From the NCBI GenBank assembly GCA_003248125.1, contig QJXZ01000219.1, forward strand, positions 1-44,108: DNA of 44,108 nucleotides, written 5' to 3'. How positions within the stretch are numbered: position 1 is the stretch's first letter; every line of letters begins with the position of its first letter. Both the position numbers and the translations under genes were made by a program. Positions 1-14,401 of the stretch are shown in pieces. This stretch comes from Gammaproteobacteria bacterium (GTDB lineage Bacteria > Pseudomonadota > Gammaproteobacteria > Pseudomonadales > Azotimanducaceae). The notes beneath the pieces were generated by a model. That model had not been told where the DNA came from. It searched no databases and saw only the letters and a list, made by a program, of their open reading frames with translations.

Positions 1-761
1 TCGGTGCCGAGTGCCTTGGTGAACGAAGCAATTGCGGCGTTGTAGTCGCCGCTCGCAGCCGCCTCGCGACCATGCGCCAGGGCTTCGCTAGCCGCAGTCT
101 GTTCGACGTTGGTTTCTGCCGCGAGTGGTGCAGCGGCAGCCGCCTGCATTGGTGCACCCACGTGCGCATCGGTGGGCGCGACCGTCACACGAGTTGAGTT
201 CGCGACTTCGGGCGCGATGACGGGTGGGGTGGCGGCCACTACGCGTTGCGAGACTTGCGTCGATGCAGCCGTGAACGCGGTCGGTTGCTCCGTGGCAACG
301 GGTTCCGTCGGCGCCGTATCGTCTGCAGCGATATTGGCGATCGGCGAAGGCGCGGCCGATGCCATCGCCTTGCCGAGATGAGCGATGCGGAACTCGAGCC
401 GGCGCGGATCCGTCTGCGTCAGCAGGTCGATGGACTCGCCGTTCGTCAGTGAGATCGTCAAGGTGAGGCCCCGTGCCGGATAGCCTTCGACGGTGACGTT
501 CAAGGTGGCGTCGATCGCCGGATACAGACTCAACGTCTTGCTCTCGAACGCCGGTGGTGCCTCGAGTTTGGTGTTGAGCTTGGCAATCAGTGTGGCGTCC
601 TCGCGCGTCGGTGTACCGTCGAGCCGCACGTCGTGTTCGAAGGTGATGACGTAGAGGTCGTTTTCCGTGTCGGATCCGCGAACCTCCACGCCCGCCAGCA
701 TGTCGGCTAGCGCTGGAGCCGCAAGCAGAAGCACAAGGAGAAGAGTAGAGGTCCGTATCAC
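1..761 (-). CDS. Exported TPR-type protein, 3' end outside window
   Basis: An open frame runs from a GTG at 761 to the left edge with no stop, giving 253 residues. The N-terminus (MIRTSTLLLVLLLAAPALA) is a clear signal peptide. Residues about 20-120 form a beta-rich stretch I do not recognise. Residues about 125-215 are Ala/Thr/Pro-rich, like a flexible linker. The last visible residues (ALAHGREAAASGDYNAAIASFTKAL) read like the start of a TPR helix pair. The start lies 11 bp after the stop of the 35-haem cytochrome gene, so the two are probably cotranscribed. A role in assembling or anchoring the cytochromes in the envelope is inference from position only. The ribosome-binding site is weak, and a start at a later codon cannot be ruled out. 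Confidence 0.7.
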   Translation of the reverse strand, partial: MIRTSTLLLVLLLAAPALADMLAGVEVRGSDTENDLYVITFEHDVRLDGTPTREDATLIAKLNTKLEAPPAFESKTLSLYPAIDATLNVTVEGYPARGLTLTISLTNGESIDLLTQTDPRRLEFRIAHLGKAMASAAPSPIANIAADDTAPTEPVATEQPTAFTAASTQVSQRVVAATPPVIAPEVANSTRVTVAPTDAHVGAPMQAAAAAPLAAETNVEQTAASEALAHGREAAASGDYNAAIASFTKALGT

Positions 762-772
762 TGGATGGTCTC

Positions 773-3475
773 TTACCAGTCCCGCTGGCGGACCGAGTGC
801 TCGTTCGTTCTGGTACGGAGGATCGTCGTAAAGGTGTTGTTGGTGTACTGGTGGCACGCGCTGGAGCAATCGCGCAGCTCGGAGACCGTATAGAAGATCG
901 TTGTCGGAACCTCCGTCTTCTTATGCGGGTCCTGCCGATAGTTGTTCGCGTGACAGCCGGCGCAATCGGGTTGATAGGGGAAGCGCCAAGTCACCGCTTC
1001 GGCGTTCGCCGTGTGGCAAGCGGTGCAAGGCGGATTGGTGGCGTGGTCGCCCGGATAATCGGGCGACGTATGCCGGAACACCGAAGGCGTCCAGAAATCG
1101 GTGGTGTGGCATTCGTCGCACGACCGGTTCGTCTGAAAGTGGTTGGCCGACATGCCGGTCGCCTGTACGCCGTTGTGGCAAGAGGCGCAGGTGCCGGGTG
1201 CCACGTTGGCGTGATCGAAGCCGGCCGGAATCCAAGCGATGGTGGAGTGGCACGCGTCGCACGATGACGTGGTCGGCAGGTGATTAGCCGGTTTGCCAGT
1301 GGAGGTCGTACCGTTGTGGCACGTCTCGCAGCTGCCGGGCGCCACTCCAGCGTGGTCGAACACGGCCGGCGTGAACGCGATCGTGGTGTGGCAGTCGTCG
1401 CATGCATCCGAGCTCGGAATGTGATTGGCGGGCTTTCCAGGCGCCGTGTTGCCATCGTGGCAGCTCACGCATGTGCCGATGACATGCGTGTGATCGACAG
1501 TGACGGCCGGTGCCCACGTGGTAGTGGAATGGCAGTCCTCGCAGAAGTCGTCGGTGCGGATGTGGTTTGCGGTCTTACCGGTGGCGGTCGAGTTGTTGTG
1601 GCACTGTGCGCAGCCGCTGGTGATCCCGGCGTGGTCGAAGCTCGCAGGTGTCCACGCGAGCGTCGAATGACAGGTGTCGCATTGTGCGGTGGTGGGCAGA
1701 TGATTGCCGGGCTTGCCCGTCGCCGTCGTGCCGTTGTGGCACTGACTGCAGCTGCCCTGCACGTGGTCGTGATCGACCATGAACGCCGGTGCAAACGAGG
1801 TGGTGGTATGGCAGCCCTCGCAGACATCGTCGGAGTTGATGTGCGTTGCATTCTTGCCCATTGCCCGAGTGCCGTTGTGACATTGAGCGCAACCCGAGAC
1901 GATGCCCGTGTGGTCGAACCGGGCAGGCCGCCAGGCGAGTGTCGAGTGGCATGAATCGCACTCTTCGGTGGTGGTTGGATGCTCTGGCGTCTTGCCTGTT
2001 GCGATCGTGCCGTTGTGACAACTCGAGCAACTACCGAGCACATGATCGTGATCGACCGTTGTTACGGGTACCCACACGCCGGGTGAATGGCAGGCTTCAC
2101 AGACGTCGTCCGTGAGAATGTGGTCGTTCGACTTGCCGGTGGCCGTGCTGCCGTTGTGGCATTCGATGCAATTGCCGGTCACGTTGTCGTGGCTGAAGGC
2201 TGCGGGTACCCATGCGAGTGGTGAGTGGCAGGCGTCGCACTCGAGGGTGGTGGGTATGTGGTCGGTGGGCTTGCCGGTTGCCGTCGTACCGTCGTGACAC
2301 TGGCCGCAGCTGCCGAGCACGTGATCGTGATCGACCACCGAGGTCGGCGACCAGGCGGTGGTCGAATGGCACGCCTCGCAGACATTGTCGGTGGCGACGT
2401 GGGTGCGCGACTTGCCGGTGGCACGTGTGCCGTCATGGCATTGCGCGCAGCCCGAGTCGATGCCGTCGTGGCTGAAGGTTGCCGGGGTCCAGGCCAACGT
2501 CGAGTGGCAGCTGTCGCACTGCGCCGTGGTCGGAATGTGATTCGCCGGCATGCCCGTCGAGATGACACCGTTGTGGCAGCTTGAGCAACTGCCCACCACG
2601 TGTGCGTGATCGACGAGCAATGCCGGCTGCCAGAAGTCGGTGCCGTGGCAGCCTTCGCACACGGCGTCGGTGGTGATGTGGTTCGGCGACTTGCCGGTCG
2701 CCTGCGTGCCGTTGTGGCACGACGCGCAGTTGTCGACGATACCGACGTGATCGAATGTCGCCGGCCGCCAGGCGAACGTGGAATGGCACTCGCTACACTC
2801 GGCCGTTGTCGTCACGTGGTTTGCGTGCTTGCCCGGCGCAGTCGTGCCGTTGTGACAGCTCGAGCAGCTGCCGAGCACGTGGTCGTGATCCACATACCAA
2901 GTCGGCTGCCAGCGTCCGATCGTGTGGCAGGCCTCGCAGGTGTTGTCACTGGTGATGTGGCTCGCCGATTTACCCGTGGCATCGCTGCCGTTGTGGCAGC
3001 CGAAACAACCGTCGGTGATCCCAGCGTGATCGAATCCGACCATGCTGAAGATCAGCGTGTTGTGGCAAGCGGCGCAATCGTCCGAGGTGGTGGGATGGTT
3101 GGCAGGCTTTCCTGGCGCGAAGAAATCGTTGTGGCAACCTGCGCAGTCGCCAACGACTTCGTCGTGGTCGACGCGCGGAATGGCGGCCCAGCTCGCGGTC
3201 ACATGGCAGGCCTCGCAGAGATTGCTCGACTGAATGTGATTCGGCGGCTTCTCCGTTTGTGCACGAAAATTGGAACCGTCGTGGCAAGTGCCGCAAGCAT
3301 GCGGCGTGCCCTTGAAGATCGACTGCACGTGACAGCTGTCGCAGGGCGCGAACTGATGCATGCCATCGAGCTCGAAACCGGTGGCGAAGTGATCGAATGC
3401 TTCTTGCGCGCGCGCATGCAACGCGCACAGCAAGGGTACGCAGAAGAGGAGTTGCGCGATCGTCTTCCGGGTCAT
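773..3475 (-). CDS. Giant multihaem c-type cytochrome, 35 CXXCH plus one CX3CH
   Basis: The product is 900 aa from the ATG at 3475, which has AGGTGG six bases upstream and opens a signal peptide ending HARAQ. An open frame extends upstream to 3544 but overlaps the previous gene and lacks a leader. I count 35 CXXCH motifs and one CSSACH near the C-terminus, about one haem per 25 residues. Residues in the middle repeat as a 93-aa module seven times. Each module has four CXXCH motifs plus extra His (VDHDH, NH, FDH) suited to bis-His ligation. No transmembrane or beta-barrel segment is visible, so the protein should be periplasmic or exported beyond the outer membrane. Long-range electron transfer is the likely role; the redox partner is unknown. 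Tentative family: cytochrome c3/paired-CXXCH proteins. Confidence 0.9.
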   Translation of the reverse strand: MTRKTIAQLLFCVPLLCALHARAQEAFDHFATGFELDGMHQFAPCDSCHVQSIFKGTPHACGTCHDGSNFRAQTEKPPNHIQSSNLCEACHVTASWAAIPRVDHDEVVGDCAGCHNDFFAPGKPANHPTTSDDCAACHNTLIFSMVGFDHAGITDGCFGCHNGSDATGKSASHITSDNTCEACHTIGRWQPTWYVDHDHVLGSCSSCHNGTTAPGKHANHVTTTAECSECHSTFAWRPATFDHVGIVDNCASCHNGTQATGKSPNHITTDAVCEGCHGTDFWQPALLVDHAHVVGSCSSCHNGVISTGMPANHIPTTAQCDSCHSTLAWTPATFSHDGIDSGCAQCHDGTRATGKSRTHVATDNVCEACHSTTAWSPTSVVDHDHVLGSCGQCHDGTTATGKPTDHIPTTLECDACHSPLAWVPAAFSHDNVTGNCIECHNGSTATGKSNDHILTDDVCEACHSPGVWVPVTTVDHDHVLGSCSSCHNGTIATGKTPEHPTTTEECDSCHSTLAWRPARFDHTGIVSGCAQCHNGTRAMGKNATHINSDDVCEGCHTTTSFAPAFMVDHDHVQGSCSQCHNGTTATGKPGNHLPTTAQCDTCHSTLAWTPASFDHAGITSGCAQCHNNSTATGKTANHIRTDDFCEDCHSTTTWAPAVTVDHTHVIGTCVSCHDGNTAPGKPANHIPSSDACDDCHTTIAFTPAVFDHAGVAPGSCETCHNGTTSTGKPANHLPTTSSCDACHSTIAWIPAGFDHANVAPGTCASCHNGVQATGMSANHFQTNRSCDECHTTDFWTPSVFRHTSPDYPGDHATNPPCTACHTANAEAVTWRFPYQPDCAGCHANNYRQDPHKKTEVPTTIFYTVSELRDCSSACHQYTNNTFTTILRTRTNEHSVRQRDW
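1220..3172 (-). repeat. Seven tandem copies of a 279-bp, four-haem module
   Basis: Translated on the minus strand, the segments opening with VDHDEV, VDHDHV, VDHAHV, VDHDHV, VDHDHV, VDHDHV and VDHTHV follow each other at exactly 93-residue (279-bp) spacing. Each holds two half-repeats: CxxCHNG..ATGK..NH..TT..CxxCHSTxAW, then a similar second half ending in a second VDH. The copies differ at many positions, so this is an old internal duplication inside the cytochrome gene. It is not a satellite or a CRISPR array. A shorter degenerate continuation (FDHAGVAP, FDHANVAP) follows at the C-terminal side. Confidence 0.85.
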
Positions 3476-3489
3476 TCGCAGCCACCTGG

Positions 3490-5052
3490 TTATGGGAGTG
3501 TCACCGCCGTGTCGAACGACTCGGTGGTGTGGCAGCGACCACAATCACCGCCGAAACGGCCCTCGTGGGCGTCGTCTTTGCGGTGGCAGGCGATACAAAG
3601 TGTTTGCAATTCTCCGGGTTCTACGCTGTCTGGAGTGTGACAGGCATCACACTCCAATTTCCGGTGGGCGCCGGTGAGCGGGAAGCCGGTCTGGGTGTCG
3701 TGATCGAATACCCAACGGTTCCAGCCATTCGGGTTGTGGCAATCGGCGCACGCCGCGCCGAATTTGCCATGGTGGTAGTCATCGCCGGTGTGGCAATCGA
3801 GGCAGGCCTCGGGTACGTCGTTGAACACCGTACCGGAGTGGCAGTCCTCGCAGGCCGCGGTGCGGTGCTGACCGATCAACGGAAACGAAGTGAAGTCGTG
3901 GTTGAAGCGAACGTCGTGCCAGGAGCGTTCGTCGTGGCACCGCTCGCAGTGCGGTTGCGTGCCGTCGTGGGCGTCGTCCTCGGCATGGCACGTATCGCAA
4001 GTCTTCTCCAAGGGATCTTCCAGCGCGCCGACGTGACACACCGCGCACGTTAGGTCCACATGGGCGCCTTTGAGTTCGAATCCAGTCTCGGCGAGGTGAT
4101 CGAAACGGGTGGTTTTCCAGTCGTCGACCGAGTGGCACTTGACGCAGTCGCGACCGTGGCGCCCACCGTGAACATCATCGAAGCTGTGGCAACCGATACA
4201 GCTGTCGGGCGGCTTGGGCCGTGCCATGTCCTGCAAGTGGCAGGCTTCGCAGGCAATCGAGGCATGCGCGCCACGTAGCCGGAAACCTGTCTTTGCGAAG
4301 TGATCGAATGATTCGACCTTCCAGCTCGACGTGACATGACAGTTGCCGCAATCCTTGCCTCGCGTTCCGCGATGCTGGTCGTCGACCGCATGACAGGACA
4401 CACACTTCGACGCGAGGTTCTCCCAAGTCTGGCCGACGTGGCATTGCATGCACGTGGTGTCGCGATGCGCTCCCGTCAGCGCAAAGTCGGTGGACGAGTG
4501 ATCGAACTCGACATTCGTCCAGCCCGCGGTCGAGTGGCAACCAGCGCAATCGTCACCGAGACGGCCCCGGTGCGGTTGATCGTCTTCGTGACAATCGATG
4601 CAACGTGACGATGCGTCTCTGGGCAGTACGTCTGCTTCGTGGCAGCTGATGCAGGGTTGGCTGATGTGACCACCATCGAGAGGGAAGTCGGTTACCGCGT
4701 GATCGAATAGCTCGACATTGAGCGTGACCACGTCTGCCGCACGTCCTTGGTGCTCAGCATGGCAGTTCTGGCAGAGCTGTGGATGTGCGCTCAGCTGCTT
4801 GCCGTGAAAGCCGTTCTTGTTGGTGACGTCGGCGGCGACCGCATCGTGGCAATCGAGGCATAGGCCGTCTTGAGCACCGCGCGCGAACGAGGCGTGGCAC
4901 TTGCCGCACTCCGTTTCGAATTCGGCATGCCCTTCGATCACGGGACCCGGCATGACCAATTGCTCGAGCGATGCGGCGAGCAGCGGCTGGGTCGATACCG
5001 CGAGGTAGGCGAACAACACAGTGAAGAGGGATCGTCCCCGCACAACCTCCAC
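3490..5052 (-). CDS. 21-haem periplasmic cytochrome c
   Basis: The product is 520 aa from a GTG at 5052. It has a signal peptide over residues 1-27 (hydrophobic core LFTVLFAYLAV) and then EQLVMPGPVIEGHAEFE before the first haem site. I count 21 CXXCH motifs spread evenly over residues about 50-510. Many are followed about 20 residues later by FDH or GAH motifs able to give the distal His. A recurring unit (TGFxLxGAHxxxxCxxCH) appears about six times. No membrane segment follows the leader, so a soluble periplasmic electron carrier is likely. The gene starts three bases after the stop of the membrane cytochrome gene and has no clear ribosome-binding site, which suggests translational coupling. 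It ends 14 bp before the larger cytochrome. The three genes probably form one electron path. Confidence 0.88.
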   Translation of the reverse strand: MEVVRGRSLFTVLFAYLAVSTQPLLAASLEQLVMPGPVIEGHAEFETECGKCHASFARGAQDGLCLDCHDAVAADVTNKNGFHGKQLSAHPQLCQNCHAEHQGRAADVVTLNVELFDHAVTDFPLDGGHISQPCISCHEADVLPRDASSRCIDCHEDDQPHRGRLGDDCAGCHSTAGWTNVEFDHSSTDFALTGAHRDTTCMQCHVGQTWENLASKCVSCHAVDDQHRGTRGKDCGNCHVTSSWKVESFDHFAKTGFRLRGAHASIACEACHLQDMARPKPPDSCIGCHSFDDVHGGRHGRDCVKCHSVDDWKTTRFDHLAETGFELKGAHVDLTCAVCHVGALEDPLEKTCDTCHAEDDAHDGTQPHCERCHDERSWHDVRFNHDFTSFPLIGQHRTAACEDCHSGTVFNDVPEACLDCHTGDDYHHGKFGAACADCHNPNGWNRWVFDHDTQTGFPLTGAHRKLECDACHTPDSVEPGELQTLCIACHRKDDAHEGRFGGDCGRCHTTESFDTAVTLP

Positions 5053-5055
5053 TCG

Positions 5056-5985
5056 CTAATAGAGGTGAACCGCTATGACGTGCACGACGGCGGACAGCAC
5101 GAGCACGATGAACAATGGATAGTGAACCACGTGCCATAGCGACATGAGTCGTTCGAACCACGCAAATTGAGAAAATTTGCGCAGCGCGCGCATGCGGTTG
5201 GCGATGTAGCGTGTGGCATTGCGCTTTAGACGGCGTCGCTCGCGTTCGAGCAGAGGAGAAGTGCGACATGCCTCGGCGACGGCGCCCCTCAGGTGCCAAC
5301 GTGCCTTGAGCGCGGCCCATCGAGTTAAGACGCTTGCCTGCAGTGCGGCCACGAACGACTCGAGTACGCCAATACGCGGTGTCATCAATCGCTGTTCGAC
5401 GGGCTCGAGATCGGCAATGACCGCCGGCAGCAGCCGCGCGAGTGTCGAGCCGCTGTCGCCTAGATTGGAGAAATCGCTCCGCAGCGACTCGAGTGTCGCA
5501 TGACGGCCAGCCAATCCGTAATGCACGCGCGAATAAAGGTAGCGACCGAACAGGCCGCTGGTGGCGACCACCAGCGTCGAGAACAACGCGATTTGGCTAT
5601 TGAAGGAGCCGAGTTCGAAGTTGGAGTGATAGAGAATGAGTACCGGCCCGATTACGCCGAGTGTCATATGCACGCGAAACCAGGTGGACACCTTGCCCCA
5701 GGTGCGAATCCGCCGCCAACGCTTGCGCAACGGGTAGAGGAACAGCGATGCCATGGTCGCGGCGCCGACGATACCGAGCCAGTATCCGGTGCCGAACTCC
5801 GGCGATAGCAAGCGTTGGTCGCGAATCGACCAGCCGCCCCAAATGACTAGCGCGGTCGAAAGATAGAAGGTGAACGCGGCAGCGCGCCGCCGAAATGATT
5901 CTCGTTTCGAACCGTTGGCTGTTGGCGCGCGAGATCGGCTAGTCACCGCGTGGGGCGGACTAATCGCTGCTGCGCGCGTGGCCAT
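5056..5985 (-). CDS. Five-helix membrane protein with cytochrome-b-like di-haem His pairs
   Basis: The product is 309 aa and starts at an ATG at 5985. Likely membrane helices lie near residues 37-52, 66-84, 103-121, 131-150 and 284-306. A basic soluble stretch (about 151-283) separates helices 4 and 5. Arg/Lys clusters before helix 1 and after helix 2 put the N-terminus and the soluble domain in the cytoplasm. H106 and H120 lie 14 apart in helix 3; H288 and H302 lie 14 apart in helix 5, which runs in the same direction. This is the spacing used by cytochrome b to hold two stacked b haems. The ferric-reductase/b561 superfamily is a looser alternative. The protein probably carries electrons across the inner membrane to the 21-haem cytochrome encoded next. 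Confidence 0.75.
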   Translation of the reverse strand: MATRAAAISPPHAVTSRSRAPTANGSKRESFRRRAAAFTFYLSTALVIWGGWSIRDQRLLSPEFGTGYWLGIVGAATMASLFLYPLRKRWRRIRTWGKVSTWFRVHMTLGVIGPVLILYHSNFELGSFNSQIALFSTLVVATSGLFGRYLYSRVHYGLAGRHATLESLRSDFSNLGDSGSTLARLLPAVIADLEPVEQRLMTPRIGVLESFVAALQASVLTRWAALKARWHLRGAVAEACRTSPLLERERRRLKRNATRYIANRMRALRKFSQFAWFERLMSLWHVVHYPLFIVLVLSAVVHVIAVHLY

Positions 5986-6005
5986 TCGTCATGTTGTCGT
6001 TCGTG

Positions 6006-6021
6006 TGTGCGGATTCTCACA
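6006..6021. promoter_or_regulatory. CRP/Vfr-like site in the divergent cytochrome/flavoprotein promoter region
   Basis: TGTGC-N6-TCACA matches the CRP consensus TGTGA-N6-TCACA at nine of ten conserved positions. It sits in the 115-bp gap between the divergent membrane-cytochrome and flavoprotein genes, where it could act on either. No FNR-type TTGAT-N4-ATCAA site was found in the gap. Clear -35/-10 boxes were not identified. Confidence 0.4.
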
Positions 6022-6100
6022 TAAAGCGTGATTGGGACTGTGACAGAATCGGCACAGCGAGGGGATTTGTTCGAGTCGACGGACTGGGTGCGGCCCGCGA

Positions 6101-7435
6101 ATGACCGATTCCGTGATGAACTGGCTGCCGTACGCGGCCTACGTTGCGCCGGCAGCATGGATTCTGCTTCGGCTTGGGCGCAGCAAGACTCGACGCCAGC
6201 ACGCCGCCATGAACGCGTTCCGCGAGTCTCGCGAAGCGGGATTGGATTCGCCGGCTTCGCTTCATCCCGTCATCGACCACGCCAAGTGCATAGGTTGCGA
6301 AGCGTGCGTGCATGCCTGCCCCGAGTATCCGAACCACAACGTCCTCGGCGTGATGCGCGGCAAGGCGCATCTGGTTAGCCCGAGCGATTGCATTGGTCAC
6401 GGCGCATGCAAGACAGCGTGTCCGGTGGGCGCTATCCGCTTGGTATTCGGGACGGCAGAACGGGGTGTCGATATCCCGGAAGTGAAACCCAACTTCGAAA
6501 CCAACGTACCGGGCATCTTCATCGCGGGTGAGCTAGGTGGCATGGGGCTCATCCGGAATGCGATCGAACAAGGCCGTCAGGCCGTCGATGGCGTCAAGAG
6601 CTATCTCGGCAACACGCGACCGGTGCCCAAGGTGGTCGACCTGCTCATCGTTGGCGCGGGACCGGCAGGCTTGTCTGCCGCGCTGGCTGCCAAAGCATCG
6701 AAGCTCGACTATCTCGTGGTCGAACAGGATTCCCTGGGCGGCACGGTGGCGCATTTCCCGCGCCGAAAGCTCGTCATGACAGCGCCCGCAAAGCTTGCGT
6801 TGGCCGGCGAAATGCAGTTCAAGGAAACGACCAAAGAAGTCCTCATGGACTATTGGCAGAACGTCGCAAAGCGGTATCAGATCAAAGTCGCGAGCCCCGA
6901 GCGAGCCACGGGTATCAAGCCGCACAGCGACGGCACGCTCGAAGTGTCCACGACGAAGGGCGTTCGCAGAGCCCGTGCTGTGCTGCTCGCGCTCGGCCGA
7001 CGCGGCACACCGAGAAAACTGGGTGTGCCGGGCGAGGAGTTACCCAAGGTGGCCTACCGGCTCGCCGATCCTGCCGAGTACGCGGGCAAACGCATGCTGG
7101 TGGTCGGCGGCGGCGACAGCGCCTTGGAAGCCGCACTTGCGCTGGCCGAGACGCCAGGAACGCAAGTCACCGTTTCCTATCGTTCCGAGAGCTTCTCTCG
7201 CGCGAAGCCAAAAAACCGCGCGCGTATCGAGGACATGGAAACGAAAGGCAACTCACGGGTGCTGCTCGAGTCGAATGTGGTCGCCATCGGCAAGGAAAAG
7301 GTTCGTATGGCGCAAGGCGGCAAAGAATTCGACCTTGCCAACGACTATGTCATCGTCTGCGCTGGCGGTGAACTGCCGACTCCATTCCTGAAGCAGGTGG
7401 GCATCAACGTAGAAACCAAGTACGGCACTGAATGA
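6101..7435 (+). CDS. Membrane-anchored 4Fe-4S / FAD / NAD(P) oxidoreductase
   Basis: The product is 444 aa. Residues 7-25 are a single N-terminal membrane helix followed by RSKTRRQ, placing the rest in the cytoplasm. Residues 63-73 (CIGCEACVHAC) are a standard 4Fe-4S motif. The second motif, residues 97-107 (CIGHGACKTAC), has His100 where the second Cys should be. Residues 136-160 (VPGIFIAGELGGMGLIRNAI) resemble the C-terminal FAD motif of thioredoxin-reductase-like enzymes, yet they precede the FAD-binding GAGPAG (185-190) and the NAD(P)-binding GGGDSA (336-341). The order suggests a circular permutation. The protein ends shortly after VIVCAGG with no second copy of that motif. It likely oxidises NAD(P)H or passes electrons to or from the divergently encoded membrane cytochrome. 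The next gene overlaps by four bases. Confidence 0.85.
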   Translation: MTDSVMNWLPYAAYVAPAAWILLRLGRSKTRRQHAAMNAFRESREAGLDSPASLHPVIDHAKCIGCEACVHACPEYPNHNVLGVMRGKAHLVSPSDCIGHGACKTACPVGAIRLVFGTAERGVDIPEVKPNFETNVPGIFIAGELGGMGLIRNAIEQGRQAVDGVKSYLGNTRPVPKVVDLLIVGAGPAGLSAALAAKASKLDYLVVEQDSLGGTVAHFPRRKLVMTAPAKLALAGEMQFKETTKEVLMDYWQNVAKRYQIKVASPERATGIKPHSDGTLEVSTTKGVRRARAVLLALGRRGTPRKLGVPGEELPKVAYRLADPAEYAGKRMLVVGGGDSALEAALALAETPGTQVTVSYRSESFSRAKPKNRARIEDMETKGNSRVLLESNVVAIGKEKVRMAQGGKEFDLANDYVIVCAGGELPTPFLKQVGINVETKYGTE

Positions 7436-8352
7436 GCGTGCTGCGTCAGCTGCTCTTGATGTTTGTGCTGCTGCCCGGCATTGCACTCGCAGCGTACGAC
7501 TATGGCGCGATCAACGAGCTGATCGTGCGTAAAGAATTCGTGCTCGCCGAGACTGCCCTTAAAGAGAGAGTCGCCCGCGGTGAGACGGAGGCGATGTTCC
7601 GGCTCGCATCGATGTACCGCACCGGCCAGGGCGTTTTTCGGCGCCTGGACGATAGCGCGCGTCTGTTCGCCGATGCCGCAGAGCGCGGCCATCTGCGGGC
7701 GATGTACATGCTGGCGCAATGCTATGAACGCGGCATCGGCGTCGAATCCAACGCGGCGCTCGCACGACATTGGTACGAGGAGGCCGCCGCGCGTGGTGAT
7801 GAGCGTGCGCAGACACGGCTGCAGACGCTCGGTAGCCGACAGCGCAATTTGTTCGAGGCGCTTGCGCAGTGGGGTGATGCACCGACCACTCTGGCTCGAG
7901 TGGCCGATGCCGATCTCAGCAGCCGCGACACTCACGATCGCACGTTGCTGATCGCTGCCGTTGCGGCTGACGCGCCCGAGGTGGCGGCTAAGCTCATCGA
8001 GCGCGGTGTCGATGTGAACGCTATCGATCGCAGTGGTCGATCCGCCTTGTTCTACGCGGTCGAACGAGATGATTCGCAGATCGTGCACATGCTTATTGCC
8101 GCGGGTGCGCAAGTAGCCGTGGCAGATGAGACGGGCAACACCGCGTTGCACTTGGCGGCATCACGGGGATCGACGGCGATTGCGACGTCGTTGGCACAGG
8201 CAGGCGCGAGACCCGACGCAGTCAATGCCGATGATTGGAGCGCGCTCGACATTGCAATCGCCCGCGATGACGAGGCGATGGTGTCGGCGTTGCGATCGTT
8301 CGGCGCCATGCCGAAGCGAAATCTCGGCGGCAGTACGCCGGCTCGGCGATGA
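7432..8352 (+). CDS. Exported Sel1/ankyrin-repeat protein, 5' part of a frameshifted gene
   Basis: The product is 306 aa, with its ATG overlapping the flavoprotein stop (ATGA). Residues 1-20 are a signal peptide (LLLMFVLLPGIALA). Residues about 52-128 contain two Sel1-like repeats (MFRLASMYRTGQGV, MYMLAQCYERGIGV). Residues about 165-290 are ankyrin repeats (GRSALFYAVERDDSQIVHMLI, GNTALHLAASRG). The frame stops at 8350-8352, but ankyrin repeats go on in the next frame to 9298, so this is probably the first half of a protein of about 620 aa. Periplasmic protein-binding or scaffold roles are typical for such repeats. Coupling to the flavoprotein gene suggests a role with the electron-transfer cluster, but this is not shown. 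Confidence 0.8.
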   Translation: MSVLRQLLLMFVLLPGIALAAYDYGAINELIVRKEFVLAETALKERVARGETEAMFRLASMYRTGQGVFRRLDDSARLFADAAERGHLRAMYMLAQCYERGIGVESNAALARHWYEEAAARGDERAQTRLQTLGSRQRNLFEALAQWGDAPTTLARVADADLSSRDTHDRTLLIAAVAADAPEVAAKLIERGVDVNAIDRSGRSALFYAVERDDSQIVHMLIAAGAQVAVADETGNTALHLAASRGSTAIATSLAQAGARPDAVNADDWSALDIAIARDDEAMVSALRSFGAMPKRNLGGSTPARR

Positions 8353-8359
8353 AGGCTTG

Positions 8360-9298
8360 GTGCGTGAACGGCTGCGCACGGACGCGGTCGACTCGAGCGG
8401 TAGCGAAGGTCACACGGCACTGTACTGGGCGGTGGTGCGCAATCACGCGGCTGTCGTCGATCAACTGCTCGCCGCCGGGGCAAATGCTCGGCTCTCGCTC
8501 GGCGCAGAAGGTACATTGGTGCACGTGGCCTTGATGGGCAACCACGACGCGATCGCACGGCGACTAATCGATGCCGGCGCGAATTTCGCTGACACGGACA
8601 GGGACGGCGCGACCAGTCTCATGTTGGCCATCCGACGCGGCGCTGTAGAAGTCGCGCTCTCGCTCCTCGTGGGCGGGGCACCGGTCAATCAAACAGATTC
8701 GAACGGTGTCAGTCCGTTGATGGCGGCGGCAACCTGTCAACGTTGCGTGCAAGCGCTGCTCGATCGCGGTGCGCGAGTCGACACATTCGATACTTTAGAG
8801 CGCTCCGCGCTCTGGTTTGCGGCGGGTGAATCGAACGTCGAGGTGGTCGAGATGTTGATGGCGCACGGTGCCACGTTCTTGGCCGATCGCGATGGCGTGA
8901 GTCCGTTGCATCGGGCCGCAACGAGCGGTTCACCGGCGGTGGTTGCCGCATTGCTGCGTGGCGGTCATACCGTCGATCCGCTGACTTCGAGCGGTAGTTC
9001 CCCATTGGCGATCGCCGCCGCTCGCGGCGCGACCGACATCGTCTCGCAGTTGGTGACGGCGGGCGCTGATGTGAACGTGCGCGACGGCGCCGGCGATACG
9101 CCACTGCACAAGGCGGCGCGCAACGGCCAACTCGATGTCGCGAGAGCCTTGCTCGATGGCGGTGCGAAACCCGAGCTGCGCAATTACCGTCAGGCCAACG
9201 TCTTCGACATTGCGGGCCAGCGCAATGATACGGCGCTGCTCGCATTGCTCGATGAGCATCGATCGGTGCTGGCGCGATTGATTGGCGGGCGGTCCTAG
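8360..9298 (+). CDS. Ankyrin-repeat continuation in a shifted frame, 3' part
   Basis: This frame is one base ahead of the preceding gene and encodes at least seven ankyrin repeats (GHTALYWAVVRNHAAVVDQLL, GVSPLHRAATSGSPAVVAALL, GDTPLHKAARNGQLDVARALL), ending LARLIGGRS. The frame is open upstream beyond 8126, but ankyrin-like sequence begins only near 8340. A GTG at 8360 has GAAGG four bases before it and could be a re-initiation start. A separate protein would lack a signal peptide, although the first half is exported. A single-base indel (real or from sequencing) or a +1 frameshift therefore seems more likely than two genes. The coordinates give the reinitiation option. Confidence 0.65.
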   Translation: MRERLRTDAVDSSGSEGHTALYWAVVRNHAAVVDQLLAAGANARLSLGAEGTLVHVALMGNHDAIARRLIDAGANFADTDRDGATSLMLAIRRGAVEVALSLLVGGAPVNQTDSNGVSPLMAAATCQRCVQALLDRGARVDTFDTLERSALWFAAGESNVEVVEMLMAHGATFLADRDGVSPLHRAATSGSPAVVAALLRGGHTVDPLTSSGSSPLAIAAARGATDIVSQLVTAGADVNVRDGAGDTPLHKAARNGQLDVARALLDGGAKPELRNYRQANVFDIAGQRNDTALLALLDEHRSVLARLIGGRS

Positions 9299-9371: not shown

Positions 9372-9941
9372 ATGATGAGGATGGCGATCCTAAGTTTCTT
9401 GGCTTGGCCTCGGGTATGCGCGGGTGTAATCCTGATCCTTGCCACGTTGCTGTTCGCCGACCCGGTCGAACCTTCGGTAGATCCGCAACCGAACGAGCCA
9501 CCGATCGAGGATGCATTGGCTACGTTGCAAGCCGAATACGCGGCGCTGGTGGGCGAGCTGGATGCGATCGAGACGGAGCTGCTTCATCCCGCTAGTTCGC
9601 GAGTCGTCGTCTACCTATCCATGGACGTGAAGGAGCCGCTCGATATTCAGAGCATGGACTTGGAAATCGACGGACGGGCTGCGGCGCATCTGCTCTATAC
9701 GGCTCATGAAGCAAACGCATTGTTCATGGGCGGTGTTCAACAAGCCTACCTCGGCAACCTCGAACCCGGTGTGCATCGGCTACGCGCCACATTGCGGTCG
9801 CTCGGCAAGCGCGGAAAAACAGTGACGCGAGAAGCGGAACTCGAGTTCGAAAAGGTGTTCGCATCGATGGTGCTGGAGTGCGCGATCTCGGGTGCGGGTG
9901 GCAACGCCAAGCCCACGCTGGTCGTGCGCGTAGTCCGTTGA
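9372..9941 (+). CDS. Single-helix or exported protein of unknown function
   Basis: The product is 189 aa. AAGGAG lies eight bases before the ATG at 9372; the second ATG at 9375 is also possible. Residues about 12-29 are hydrophobic (WPRVCAGVILILATLLF), acting as an anchor or leader. Residues about 45-70 look coiled (ALATLQAEYAALVGELDAIE). The remainder is a compact alpha/beta stretch ending in VVRVVR. I do not recognise the family. It opens a plus-strand run of five genes with TPR lipoproteins, so a role in the same envelope complex is inferred from position. Confidence 0.75.
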   Translation: MMRMAILSFLAWPRVCAGVILILATLLFADPVEPSVDPQPNEPPIEDALATLQAEYAALVGELDAIETELLHPASSRVVVYLSMDVKEPLDIQSMDLEIDGRAAAHLLYTAHEANALFMGGVQQAYLGNLEPGVHRLRATLRSLGKRGKTVTREAELEFEKVFASMVLECAISGAGGNAKPTLVVRVVR

Positions 9942-9959
9942 TGTGGTGATGACTTGCAG

Positions 9960-11669
9960 ATGACCACTTTGTGCGATTGGTTGCTGCTCTGCGCGCTCAC
10001 GACACCAATGGGCGGCAACGAGTCGCTGAACGAGCGTGCGGTGCTGTACGACTACTACGATGGCCGCGGACTGGATGCGATCGTGCGCGCAACCAGCATT
10101 GCATCAGGGTCGTCCCTTGCTCCCGCCGAGCGTGAAGAACTGGCACTGCTCGCACAGACCGTTGCCTACGAATCGAATGTGGCAGTCGAACGCTTCGCAC
10201 CATTCGCGCTCGAGGAAGTCGATCTCGATGCTGCGCAGCGCCTGCGTCTCCATGTCGCGCGTGCGCGCAGTCATCATTGGCGCCAACGATGGAGTGAGCT
10301 CGAAGGCGATGTCGATTCCGCGGAAGCAGTGCTCGCAACGCTTGCGTCGAGTGGTGCGTCGGTCGAAGACGACATGCGCACAGAGGTCGCGTTTCTGCGT
10401 GCCGAGCAGTTGATCGCGACGGGCAGATTCGAGCGGGCGAAAGCGATCGTTCTCGCCATGCCCGTCAAAGATGCGCGCCGTGCCTACGCGATGTACAACC
10501 TCGCCGTCGCACAGTACACCGCTGGGGCGTTGGATCTCGCGGAAGCGTCCTTGCAGGAGCTCGCCGGCGCCGACGTCTATACGCACGATGCGCTGGATCT
10601 GAAGAGCCGTGCCGCTATTGCGCTTGCGCTGGTGAGGCTGCTGCAGACCAAGTCGGCGTCGGCAGAAGCAGCGTTGCGCACCGTTCCGGCACAGAGTCGC
10701 TACCGCGATGGCGCGCTCGCCAAATTCGGTGAGCAGGCCATGATCGATGGCGAATGGGAGCTCGCTGCTCGCTTGTGGACGACGGTGCTCGCCGATCAAA
10801 AGTGGTCCGCCACCGGTGTGACGGCCCAACTCGCGCTGCCGATGAGTCTCGAGTTCAGCGAGACGCCTGCGCAGTTGTTGGCGCGCTATCGAGACATCGA
10901 ACAAGCCTACACAATGCGTGCTGCTGCACTGAGACAGCTGCTTGCGCGCATCGAAGGCGACGAGACGTGGTGCAAGGCGGTACTGCGTGGCATCGCGTAC
11001 TCGTTCGCGGGTGGTGAGCCCGCGACGTTAGACCAATTCGACGAGTTCACTGCTGCCGTGGATCACCCGGACTGGGTAGGCTGGTTCAGCGAGGAGGACA
11101 CACAGCGCGTCCTCGATGGGCTGTTGACCGTCGATTCGATGATCGCGCAGCTCGAGGCGCGCGCCGCCCAGCTCCGCGCGCTGAATGTCGTCGCCGCGGA
11201 CAACCGAGAGCGGGCCGTCAAGATTCGTCGCGCAATCGAGGCTCATGATCTCGACGCGCGTCTGGCGCGCATTGCATCCAAAACGGCTGTGGTCAGTGGA
11301 CTCATAGAGCAACTGGCGGACGATCCAGAGACCGACGCAGACTCGGTGCAGCAATACAGGACAGCGATTGCAACGTTCGAGGCCGAAGACGAAGCGACGC
11401 GCGCCCGCGTTTTGCACGCCGAAACCGCGGCCGACGCGATGGAAAGGTGGGCGGCGAAGTTCGATCTCGACGACGCATCAACGCGAATCCGCGACCTCGT
11501 GAATCGGTTGGCGGCGGTGCGCGATGACTTGGACCGAGACCTTGCAGACCGATTGCACGTGCACGTGCAATCGGAGGTGGACGTGCTAGACGAACAGATG
11601 CGTGCGACCAAGCTCGCGATGGCACACACAATGGATCGCGTGACGGACGAATCGCGGGGTGACCGGTGA
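9960..11669 (+). CDS. TPR/coiled-coil envelope protein of unknown function
   Basis: The product is 569 aa from the ATG at 9960; a TTG at 9954 would add two residues. The N-terminus (LCDWLLLCALTTPMGG) is a short leader-like segment. Residues about 40-300 are helical and TPR-like (YAMYNLAVAQYTAGALDLAEASLQEL). Residues about 400-560 are rich in Asp, Glu, Arg and Ala with heptad character, likely coiled coil. The stop overlaps the GTG of the next lipoprotein gene, so the two are translationally coupled. The function is unknown; scaffolding beside the TPR lipoproteins is the simplest idea. Confidence 0.75.
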   Translation: MTTLCDWLLLCALTTPMGGNESLNERAVLYDYYDGRGLDAIVRATSIASGSSLAPAEREELALLAQTVAYESNVAVERFAPFALEEVDLDAAQRLRLHVARARSHHWRQRWSELEGDVDSAEAVLATLASSGASVEDDMRTEVAFLRAEQLIATGRFERAKAIVLAMPVKDARRAYAMYNLAVAQYTAGALDLAEASLQELAGADVYTHDALDLKSRAAIALALVRLLQTKSASAEAALRTVPAQSRYRDGALAKFGEQAMIDGEWELAARLWTTVLADQKWSATGVTAQLALPMSLEFSETPAQLLARYRDIEQAYTMRAAALRQLLARIEGDETWCKAVLRGIAYSFAGGEPATLDQFDEFTAAVDHPDWVGWFSEEDTQRVLDGLLTVDSMIAQLEARAAQLRALNVVAADNRERAVKIRRAIEAHDLDARLARIASKTAVVSGLIEQLADDPETDADSVQQYRTAIATFEAEDEATRARVLHAETAADAMERWAAKFDLDDASTRIRDLVNRLAAVRDDLDRDLADRLHVHVQSEVDVLDEQMRATKLAMAHTMDRVTDESRGDR

Positions 11670-14401
11670 GCATTTGCCGGTACTTCGTTGCCGTCGCGGC
11701 ACTGCTACTCGCCGCCTGTGCTGGGCAAAAGCCCCTGGTTGCCGAAGGCCCGGCGGCGACCGACGTACTGGAGGAAGTCGCCAGTTCGCCTGAACCGAAT
11801 CCATCGGAACCGTCTCCGGCCGAAGTGTCGCAGCGATACCGAGAAGCCATGGCAAATCTTCCGGCACAGGCCGACTCACGAGCCATCGAACGCCGATTGG
11901 CCGATTTGGCGGTGCAATCGGCCGATGAAGGTGAGGTGCCGGACGCTACCGCGTTGCGCGAAGCGATTGCTCGCTACGAACTGCTGCTTGCCGATCCGCA
12001 GAGTCGCGAAAGGGACTCGATTACCTATCGGTTGGCACGCGCCTACGAGCTGATCGGCGATCTCGATCAGGCGCGTGGATACCTAGACGCGCTGATCGAG
12101 CGATTCCCCTACAGCGAATACGTCATCGAAGCGCGTTTCCGACGCGCCGAGCAGCGCTTCGTCGCGGAACGGTATGAAGCAGCAGCCGAGGACTACGACT
12201 ATGTGTTCGCGAACGGTGAGGGCGGGCCATACTGGCTGAACGCGGGCTACATGCTCGGCTGGGCTAAGCTCAAGCTGTCGCGGCCCGACGAAAGCTTGCA
12301 GCATTTCCTGGACGTTTTGCCGTCGACACTCGAGCGCGATGCGCCGCGCTCGTCTTCGCGCGAACTCTTCGACGATGTTCTGCGGGGGATAACGCTGGTT
12401 GTCGAGAACCTCGATGGTCCGCGGACGCTCGCGCTCGCTACCAGGCAACTCGACCATCCGCCCTGGCAGCACTACCTGTTCGAACGATTGGCCGACGAGC
12501 TCGAGCGTGAACAGCGCTTCCTCGACAGCGTCGCAGCCCTCGAAACCTTCATCGATGAAAACCCGATGGATTGGCGCGCGGTGCTGTTCGAGCGTCGTGC
12601 GATCGAAACGCTCGCGAAGGGCGACTTTCCCTCTGATGTGCGGCGCCACCAGGACATGTTCGTTCGACGCTACGGTGTGGGCACGAACTATTGGAACTCG
12701 TATGCCGGCGACGAGCGCAACGATTACCGATCGACGCTGCGCGGCTATCTGCTGGAATTGGCGCGGGGGGCGCACGCCGACGCGCAGTCGAGCGGCGACG
12801 TTGCCGACTTCGATAGTGCAGCGCGCTACTACGACCAATTCGCTTCGTCGTTTCCCGACGACCCCGAGGTGGCGAGCAATTTGTTCCTCATGGCCGAGGC
12901 GCTTACCGATGCGGGTAAGTTGGAACGCGCGGTGGCGACCTTCGAGCGCATCGTTGCCGAACATCCAGACTTCGATCGAGCGGGCGAAGCCGCCTATGCA
13001 GCCGTCCTCGGCATCACGAAGATGATCGAGCTTCTGGCGGCCGGACAAGACTCGCGCGAGCTGGAGTTGCGACGGGTGACCGCCGAGATTTCGTTCGCGG
13101 ACGCCTTTCCCGACCATCCGCGCGCATCCGAGGCACTCCTAGCTGCGGCAGTCGCGAGCTTCCAGTACGAAAACTACCAACAAGCATTCGATCTCGCGCA
13201 ACGGGTCGAGGCGCGCGCGTCGAATCCGGATGAATTGCGGCAGCGTGCGTTGGTCGTGGCAGGGCACAGTGCCTTCGAGCTCGAGAATTTCGTTGCGGCG
13301 GAGCAGGCGTATGCCGAGTTCCTCGCCGGTACCGAAACGGCGACCGCCGAATCCCAGAATGTCGAACCGAAGTTGCTCGCGAGCGTGTTCGAACAGGGCG
13401 AGCGCGCACGGCAGGCAGGCGACTTGGAGCAGGCGGTACACCATTTCTTGCGCATCGAGTCGATCGACCCTACGGCGGCGATTGCGCTCGAGGGTTACCT
13501 CAACGCCGCGTCGATTCGGGAGACGCAAGAACGATGGATGGACGCCGCCGAACTGTTGAGCGCCGTGCGCACGCGTTTCGAACCAACACCGACGACGCGC
13601 GACATCGTTCTCAGGATCGCAACGTGCTATGAGAATGCGTCGTCGCCGCGATTGGCGGGCGACCAATATCGGATTGCCGCCACGGAGGTGGACGATCCGG
13701 ATGTGCAGAGGCAGTCGCTCTACCGAGCGGGCGAACTCTATTTGCAAGTCGATGAATCGGCGGCGAAGGAGACGTTCAGCGACTATGCGATGCGCTACCC
13801 GGTGCCAGCGGACGTGGCGGTGGAAGCCATGCACTACGTTGTCGAGCTGAGTGCGGGCGAGGAGAAGCGCGTTTGGCAAGCGCACATCCTCGAACAGGTG
13901 GATTCGTTGGTAGAGCCCACCGATCGCGAGCGGTTCCTTGCCGCCGAGTCCGCGATCGAATTAGCGGACGGTGCGCGCACGACGTTCTCGTCGATCGCGC
14001 TGGAGAACCCGATTGCCGATAGTCTGAAGCGTAAGCAGCTGGCATTGACGAATGCGGTGACGGCCTACGAGCGCGCCGCGGGCTACCAGGTATTGGCAGT
14101 CACCACTGCGGCGACCTTCAACATTGCGGACGTCTATGCGGAACTCGCGACCGCCATTCTCGATTCGAGCCGTCCCGACGACCTGTCGGATCTCGAGCGC
14201 GAGCAGTATGAGCTTCTATTGGAAGAACAGGCGGACCCGTTCGTGGACCAGGCGATTGAGCTGCACGAGACCAATGCGCGGCGGGCGTGGGAGGGCACCT
14301 ACGATGAGTGGGTCCGACGCAGCTTCGAACGATTGCGATCGCTGCTTCCCGCACGATTCGACAAGTCGGAGGTATTGGCGAGTGCGACCGAAATTCACTG
14401 A
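11666..14401 (+). CDS. Large TPR outer-membrane lipoprotein
   Basis: The product is 911 aa from a GTG at 11666 that overlaps the previous stop (GTGA). The lipobox LLAAC places the lipidated residue at Cys18, followed by Ala-Gly, so outer-membrane sorting is expected. Residues about 100-700 carry many TPR pairs of the BamD/YbgF kind (YRLARAYELIGDLDQARGYL, LFLMAEALTDAGKLERAVATF). No catalytic motif was seen. The protein should be a periplasm-facing scaffold. Its end overlaps the start of the next lipoprotein gene by 20 bases. TPR lipoproteins of this shape are known beside ExbB/ExbD/TonB-like and gliding systems, but no such motor gene lies in this window. Confidence 0.82.
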   Translation: MSICRYFVAVAALLLAACAGQKPLVAEGPAATDVLEEVASSPEPNPSEPSPAEVSQRYREAMANLPAQADSRAIERRLADLAVQSADEGEVPDATALREAIARYELLLADPQSRERDSITYRLARAYELIGDLDQARGYLDALIERFPYSEYVIEARFRRAEQRFVAERYEAAAEDYDYVFANGEGGPYWLNAGYMLGWAKLKLSRPDESLQHFLDVLPSTLERDAPRSSSRELFDDVLRGITLVVENLDGPRTLALATRQLDHPPWQHYLFERLADELEREQRFLDSVAALETFIDENPMDWRAVLFERRAIETLAKGDFPSDVRRHQDMFVRRYGVGTNYWNSYAGDERNDYRSTLRGYLLELARGAHADAQSSGDVADFDSAARYYDQFASSFPDDPEVASNLFLMAEALTDAGKLERAVATFERIVAEHPDFDRAGEAAYAAVLGITKMIELLAAGQDSRELELRRVTAEISFADAFPDHPRASEALLAAAVASFQYENYQQAFDLAQRVEARASNPDELRQRALVVAGHSAFELENFVAAEQAYAEFLAGTETATAESQNVEPKLLASVFEQGERARQAGDLEQAVHHFLRIESIDPTAAIALEGYLNAASIRETQERWMDAAELLSAVRTRFEPTPTTRDIVLRIATCYENASSPRLAGDQYRIAATEVDDPDVQRQSLYRAGELYLQVDESAAKETFSDYAMRYPVPADVAVEAMHYVVELSAGEEKRVWQAHILEQVDSLVEPTDRERFLAAESAIELADGARTTFSSIALENPIADSLKRKQLALTNAVTAYERAAGYQVLAVTTAATFNIADVYAELATAILDSSRPDDLSDLEREQYELLLEEQADPFVDQAIELHETNARRAWEGTYDEWVRRSFERLRSLLPARFDKSEVLASATEIH

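Follow-up and report, generated by a model that had tools for sequence, protein, structure and literature searches.

The beginning of contig QJXZ01000219.1, from a gammaproteobacterial genome of the Azotimanducaceae (assembly GCA_003248125.1), encodes two multihaem cytochromes, a membrane protein and a flavoprotein side by side, which raises the question of what kind of electron conduit these genes form and what drives it. The contig (G000:C42) was analysed over its whole length of 44,108 nucleotides, hereafter the window; base 1 of the window is therefore also the contig end and lies inside a gene on the minus strand (3–869). All four open reading frames (ORFs) on which the original prediction was built, namely those of the flavoprotein, the membrane protein and the two cytochromes, were recovered where it had placed them. 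It had proposed a transenvelope conduit without a visible porin and unlike the common Mtr layout; we find that the locus is almost certainly a PCC3 porin-cytochrome cluster. The explanation that we favour, and consider probable, is that two more proteins regularly belong to this PCC3 conduit, a flavoprotein of the NAD(P)H type that faces the cytosol and a Sel1/ankyrin-repeat protein, and that the conduit is fed by NAD(P)H.

In the main text of He et al. (2017; PMC5566968), PCC3 is described as a cluster of four genes that encode a porin, an extracellular cytochrome with a median of 34 haems, a periplasmic cytochrome with a median of 21 haems and a ~300-residue inner-membrane protein carrying an SGXXG motif and two WX3HX13H motifs. 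The window contains, on the minus strand, a putative periplasmic multihaem cytochrome (3490–5052) with 21 CXXCH motifs (500 shuffles of the sequence gave a mean of 0.3 and a maximum of 2) and a putative extracellular cytochrome (773–3544) with 35 CXXCH motifs and one CX3CH (500 shuffles, mean 0.55 and maximum 4). The earlier tally of 56 to 57 haem sites was thus right, the CXXCH counts being far above those of the shuffles. Both proteins match Cytochrome_C7 and related Pfam models; the periplasmic one is built from repeats of three haems per ~67 residues and the other from repeats of four haems per ~93 residues, and its extracellular location is presumed from the literature on PCC3. Between these genes and the flavoprotein gene lies that of a 309-residue inner-membrane protein (5056–5985, minus strand), a presumed di-haem cytochrome b with the motifs W102-X3-H106-X13-H120 and W284-X3-H288-X13-H302 and an SGXXG motif. 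The likeness to PCC3 extends to the membrane-protein motifs, the 21-haem periplasmic cytochrome, the very large extracellular cytochrome, the probable start of a porin and the gene order; the flavoprotein (6101–7435, plus strand) and the Sel1/ankyrin-repeat protein (7432–9298, plus strand) are additional to the four genes of the published description. PCC3 is known from Sideroxydans, Leptothrix and Amphritea, and the same main text names Amphritea atlantica as a bearer with 63 and 21 haems (PMC5566968). In Amphritea atlantica DSM 18887 (L166) we found the 63-haem and 21-haem genes together with porin ORFs, the membrane protein, the flavoprotein and the ankyrin gene.

The original prediction stated that no porin is visible, which is true within the window as far as a whole porin gene is concerned. 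The contig breaks, however, inside the gene that follows the putative surface cytochrome (3–869, minus strand), which is probably the N-terminal part of the PCC3 outer-membrane porin gene. Against a profile of 29 PCC3 porins this fragment scores 24.3 bits (E 5.5e-6 among 9,899 ORFs), and in a shuffle test the best of 500 shuffles reached 12.2 compared with 24.7 for the real fragment. It shows a signal-like start, a beta-rich domain, a linker and a TPR-like (tetratricopeptide repeat) end; the listed ORF starts upstream of the likely true start, and the barrel itself would lie outside the window. The fragment has no Pfam match, and a BLASTP comparison with the single porin of genome G009 was not significant (E 0.22). 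The corresponding series of genes in G009 closes with a complete protein of 720 residues, whose match to OMP_b-brl is weak and falls short of the Pfam cut-off, and in many relatives the last gene in the PCC3 order is a porin. Since the contig ends inside a gene that matches the porin profile, the apparent lack of a porin is in all likelihood an artefact. A new porin-less conduit unlike the described types would agree with the lack of a whole porin gene in the window and of a Pfam match in the cut gene, but the contig end and the profile match lead us to reject this reading, which we regard as highly improbable. What stands of the earlier claim is a putative transenvelope conduit, with the flavoprotein as its regular partner.

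Other known systems resemble the locus less closely. MtrCAB and MtoAB share with it a porin combined with multihaem cytochromes; they differ in their decahaem cytochromes and in having the quinol dehydrogenase CymA where the present locus has the membrane protein with the flavoprotein. An Mtr or Mto system at the window locus was rejected, since no MtrA/MtoA or MtrB/PioB model exceeded its cut-off among ten proteins searched, of which the cut gene is partial. A DmsE-family decahaem model reached 126.4 of the required 192.2 bits with the big cytochrome, which is below its cut-off. Sequence searches of the PDB gave no match for the 21-haem cytochrome and one weak match for the 773–3544 cytochrome (6r2q_A, E 1.2e-4). 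The molecule name printed for this match looks out of place, and we take the entry to be from an Mtr complex. NADPH oxidases and ferric reductases (FRD, PF01794) are similar on paper, since they combine NAD(P)H, flavin adenine dinucleotide (FAD) and two haems on two HX13H pairs to move electrons outward. The window's membrane protein, however, has no match to PF01794, and a search of the PDB gave no such fold at E ≤0.001; FAD and Fe–S motifs are found on a separate, YpdA-like protein. PCC4, as described in the main text of He et al. (PMC5566968), also has a membrane protein with two HX13H motifs alongside other redox proteins; it differs in its 10-haem cytochromes and in having no giant extracellular cytochrome. 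Six genomes (G133, G250, G261, G339, G350 and G434) with membrane-protein matches of E 1e-11 to 1e-14 look PCC4-like, as judged from haem numbers and gene order. All six contain a related, longer flavoprotein (open frames of 794–860; E 1e-48 to 1e-55) that is matched over the FAD/NAD(P) part only and adjoins the distant membrane-protein relative in five of the six loci. The window's own genome has a second, PCC4-like set (L016 1–4203; G000:C364), consisting of a cytochrome gene truncated at the end of its contig, with three CXXCH motifs in the remaining part, a distant membrane-protein relative and an 858-residue flavoprotein with cyclic-nucleotide-binding and Fe–S domains.

The two histidine pairs that had been recognised in the membrane protein are those of the two WX3HX13H motifs. 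In two overlapping alignments, both of which include the window's sequence, residues W102, H106, H120, G144, G147, W284, H288 and H302 are invariant (46 of 46 sequences in A2 and 63 of 63 in A4), and the serine of SGXXG is kept in 45 of 46 and 63 of 63, respectively. The AlphaFold2 (AF2) model has a mean predicted local distance difference test score (pLDDT) of 89.9, and its helices 23–53, 65–80, 99–120, 128–154 and the end of 250–308 fit the five membrane passages expected of the PCC3 protein; a hydropathy scan at 1.5 flagged one segment only. Between the fourth and fifth presumed membrane helices the model contains a long helical insert that is strongly basic (22.5 K/R compared with 11.4 D/E) and, by the positive-inside rule, is therefore expected to be cytoplasmic, where it could serve as a dock for the flavoprotein. 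The membrane protein matched no Pfam family at E 0.001, and a Foldseek search of the PDB with the model returned no match at E ≤0.001, the VIA rows being unrelated helical proteins. A known fold may nevertheless underlie this protein, the PDB searches having given nothing usable.

The annotation of the fourth gene product as an NAD(P)H-type flavoprotein with Fe–S motifs is borne out by Pfam matches to Pyr_redox_3 and several Fer4 models. The first Fe–S motif is CX2CX2CX3C, of which the second cysteine is exchanged in 5 of the 37 sequences of one alignment and in 3 of the 46 of another. The second is, as had not been noted, of the Cys3His kind (CX2HX2CX3C), and its histidine is invariant (37 of 37 and 46 of 46). 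As seven of the eight cysteines sit in these Fe–S motifs, the protein has no redox disulfide. A predicted N-terminal helix (residues 9–45 in the AF2 model, pLDDT 90.5) with basic residues in its second half probably acts as an anchor; its hydropathy peak is only 1.27. On average 5.3 K/R follow the hydrophobic stretch and 0.1 precede it, and because of this charge pattern and the positive-inside rule, the flavoprotein domain and the insert of the membrane protein are both predicted to face the cytoplasm. The fold of the model is close to that of YpdA (Z 24.2, rmsd (root-mean-square deviation) 3.5 over 266 residues, 27% identity), and the YpdA family model matches residues 180–440 only, with 174.3 of 339.9 bits, that is, below its cut-off. 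The likeness to YpdA bacillithiol disulfide reductase and thioredoxin-reductase-like FNR proteins thus lies in the C-terminal FAD/NAD(P) domain, to which the window's protein adds the N-terminal anchor and the two Fe–S motifs. A YpdA or thioredoxin-reductase function was rejected, as only the C-terminal domain matches and the redox disulfide is absent. In a genome that consists of a single contig (G129), the frame of the PCC3 flavoprotein is broken by one TGA (L054 10407–12032).

Is the flavoprotein a regular partner of PCC3 or a chance neighbour? The membrane protein and the flavoprotein each served as query against 369 genomes drawn from the class, among them that of the window; in this draw, and in a draw of 398 genomes from the phylum, the best four flavoprotein and the best six membrane-protein candidates were scored per genome. 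Membrane-protein matches were obtained in 48 genomes at 1e-10, of which 42 fall below 1e-20 and are termed PCC3-type here, a cut that was chosen after seeing the results and that is defined by this gene irrespective of the other PCC3 genes. The flavoprotein was found in 45 genomes at 1e-60. Both genes occur in 41 genomes, the membrane protein only in one, the flavoprotein only in four and neither in 323, so that 41 of the 42 genomes with a PCC3 membrane protein, compared with 4 of the 327 others, carry the flavoprotein (Fisher p 1.2e-48); the 41 belong to 33 families. When all 48 genomes with a membrane-protein match at 1e-10 are counted, the additional six being the PCC4-like ones named above, 41 have the flavoprotein at 1e-60. 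Among the four genomes with the flavoprotein only, G193 and G395 are partial, G272 is 72% complete and G234 has a weak match over part of the protein; no membrane protein was found in these four in a second search with all candidates scored. The phylum draw gave eight flavoprotein matches at 1e-60. Two of these (G234 and G462) are weak, partial and without a membrane protein; of the six strong ones, two (G000 and G181) were already in the class count. The membrane protein is encoded in each of the remaining four, in G805 on a different contig from the flavoprotein.

The two genes are also linked, lying on one contig and no more than 12 kb apart in 37 of the 41 genomes. Further loci in named genomes were drawn with the flavoprotein alignment as the best 80 of at least 535 relatives, a set that is biased to close relatives and shares some genomes with the class draw. 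Within 80 such loci we found the membrane protein in 66, a cytochrome with at least five haem motifs in 61, a porin in 41 and an ankyrin-profile match in 62, and the 14 loci without the membrane protein are each bounded, on one side or both, by a contig end no further than 5.1 kb away. The membrane-protein and flavoprotein genes are head-to-head in 54 of the 66 loci and also in L198, where the ORF starts overlap; in six they are on one strand and in five the flavoprotein–ankyrin pair is at the far end. The co-occurrence and co-localisation that had been suggested as a check on the original prediction were thus observed in 33 families of the class draw and in the named genomes. From these data we conclude that the flavoprotein is very probably a working part of the PCC3 system.

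The Sel1/ankyrin gene, which was recognised from Pfam matches and comparison with relatives, directly follows the flavoprotein gene on the same strand in 58 of the 74 named loci that continue for over 500 bp downstream. As an ankyrin profile can match other ankyrin and Sel1 proteins, this adjacency is more telling than the count of profile matches given above. In the window the gene consists of two ORFs (7432–8352 and 8126–9298), split by a frameshift at approximately 8307–8321 that was not mentioned in the original prediction, and in most relatives it is a single long ORF (34 complete ones exceed 550 residues). The frameshift could be either an assembly error or real decay, which are indistinguishable here. 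Repeats of the Sel1 and ankyrin kinds typically act as scaffolds for the binding of proteins.

That the flavoprotein and the Sel1/ankyrin protein are regularly present at PCC3 loci appears not to have been described previously. The words flavo-, ankyrin and Sel1 are absent from the main texts of PMC5566968, PMC10734462, PMC12442390 and PMC13386937; the supplements or figures of He et al. might list or draw the flavoprotein. Among the matches listed in a literature search, nothing relevant connected PCC3 or multihaem cytochromes to ankyrin or Sel1 proteins, flavoproteins or NADPH.

These members suggest a route for electrons. NAD(P)H would reduce the FAD of the flavoprotein, from which electrons would pass to the two Fe–S clusters and then, within the membrane protein, to a cytoplasm-side b-haem (H106/H288) and a periplasm-side b-haem (H120/H302). 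The latter would reduce the 21-haem periplasmic rod, from which electrons may cross the outer membrane within the porin, reach the 36-haem surface rod and pass on to an outside acceptor. The potential of NAD(P)+ is approximately −0.32 V; to reduce it through a passive wire, electrons from an Fe(II)-like donor would have to move uphill and work against the membrane potential, whereas on the way out they run downhill. Should the flavoprotein indeed supply the wire, net flow is therefore more likely to be export. Overall, we see an even chance that the net flow is outward and driven by NAD(P)H.

Several observations weigh against this NAD(P)H-fed scheme. The model of the membrane protein matches no b-type cytochrome in the PDB, so that the presumed binding of haem b is deduced from the four histidines. 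Genome G285 has the membrane protein and only a fragment of the flavoprotein. G009, which belongs to the window's family and is 96% complete, has genes for the membrane protein, a 21-haem and a 9-haem cytochrome and the porin. Scoring of all 32 candidates gave no flavoprotein anywhere in this genome, and the 32 kb examined around the wire genes contain no ankyrin gene; the wire can therefore exist without the flavoprotein. The flavoprotein is on another contig in four of the 41 genomes (G097, G181, G280 and G364), and in G097 the membrane-protein gene lies more than 20 kb inside a 73.6-kb contig, so that the genes are apart there. In G091 (L013) the flavoprotein gene is head-to-head with the 21-haem gene and the membrane protein is on another contig. 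The linkage counts stand without an unrelated gene-pair control, and the profile used to find the flavoprotein derives from copies that are linked to PCC3. Finally, Sideroxydans CL21 cells able to oxidise iron show a rise of the membrane-protein gene of their PCC3 copy 2, according to the passages on PCC3 in PMC12442390, which favours an inward role.

Such an inward role is at the heart of the published model (He et al., 2017), in which a quinone-coupled conduit would take electrons from Fe(II), minerals or a cathode through the surface rod, porin, 21-haem rod and membrane protein to the quinone pool. The flavoprotein would then be an accessory, for example a branch that responds to redox state or one used under other conditions. 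The comparison with cytochrome b made in that model and the habitats of PCC3 bacteria, as given in the main text (PMC5566968), speak for it, as do the CL21 data and the occurrence of PCC3 in G009 without the flavoprotein. PCC3 is listed as a possible iron-oxidation system for many bacteria, and is functionally unverified according to the relevant part of PMC12442390. The window's genome has, in addition, an MtoA/MtoB-like operon on a separate contig (G000:C345; L242 8744–13265) with 10-, 2- and 4-haem cytochromes, the 4-haem gene being of CymA-like build, and the one MtrB/PioB porin match of the genome is on this contig (276.3 bits, above the cut-off). The inward model, however, leaves the flavoprotein in 41 of 42 genomes unexplained. 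In Sideroxydans ES-1, expression of both PCC3 clusters falls on Fe(II) (PMC8788666), and in the ES-1 magnetite proteome the PCC3 proteins show no clear rise, the surface cytochrome Slit_1448 being 0 in all eight columns (PMC12016527); these two sources were consulted for PCC3 terms only. No RuBisCO was seen in the host genome, the completeness of which is estimated at 100%; haem-copper oxidases are present. The published expression data are thus mixed, and we regard an inward, quinone-coupled conduit as rather unlikely for this locus.

G009 likewise bears on a different explanation, namely that the flavoprotein and the Sel1/ankyrin protein stand outside the electron path and help to assemble the giant cytochromes or to control their quality, for instance through reductive haem attachment or redox priming. 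The persistence of the wire genes in G009 without the flavoprotein and with no ankyrin gene in the 32 kb around them, the adjacency of the two genes in most named loci and the scaffold nature of Sel1/ankyrin repeats would all suit this role. The two Fe–S motifs, the lack of a redox disulfide and the predicted cytoplasmic domain are better suited to electron delivery than to maturation in the periplasm, and the related flavoprotein of the PCC4-like genomes, next to a distant membrane-protein relative, also argues against it. We therefore consider an assembly role to be improbable, and retain the NAD(P)H-fed PCC3 conduit with two additional members as the preferred explanation.

A more far-reaching form of this explanation, which we put forward tentatively as a possibility that falls short of being probable, is that PCC3 is a six-gene NAD(P)H-driven exporter in which a transmembrane step resembling that of NADPH oxidases, made up of the flavoprotein and the two-b-haem protein, is wired directly and without the quinone pool to a rod of three-haem modules that spans the periplasm, and from there to a surface rod of up to 81 haems or more. 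If this is true, the main task of PCC3 would be the dumping or trading of electrons and not the oxidation of Fe(II) that is usually proposed. The flavoprotein could explain what powers the PCC3 wire, and its presence across 33 families of the class draw provides a concrete handle for telling a coupling of PCC3 to NAD(P)H from one to quinones.

The two rods differ in how their haem number varies. Among 115 loci with the membrane protein, a complete adjoining cytochrome is present in 99 and is distinct in 90; of these 90, 70 have 21 CXXCH motifs, 11 have 18 and 8 have 24, so that multiples of three account for 89, with L175 (7 CXXCH) as the sole exception. The counterparts in Gallionellaceae have 21, 24 or 27, again multiples of three, as given in the part of PMC10734462 that covers them. 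This stepping by three haems, which matches the three-haem repeat, suggests that the length of the periplasmic rod is fitted to the periplasm, and it appears not to have been described previously, as far as the literature was compared. The next cytochrome downstream is variable, with 7 to 67 CXXCH motifs among complete ORFs. In L064 (12022–19501), the ORF of a PCC3 surface cytochrome already contains 81 CXXCH motifs where it runs off its stretch.

Beyond the ankyrin gene, the window encodes a 189-residue protein and a 911-residue TPR protein (9372–14401), for neither of which a function was found in our analysis. Relatives of this pair are present in the same order in G091 (L013 840–6336), a genome from another family of the same order.

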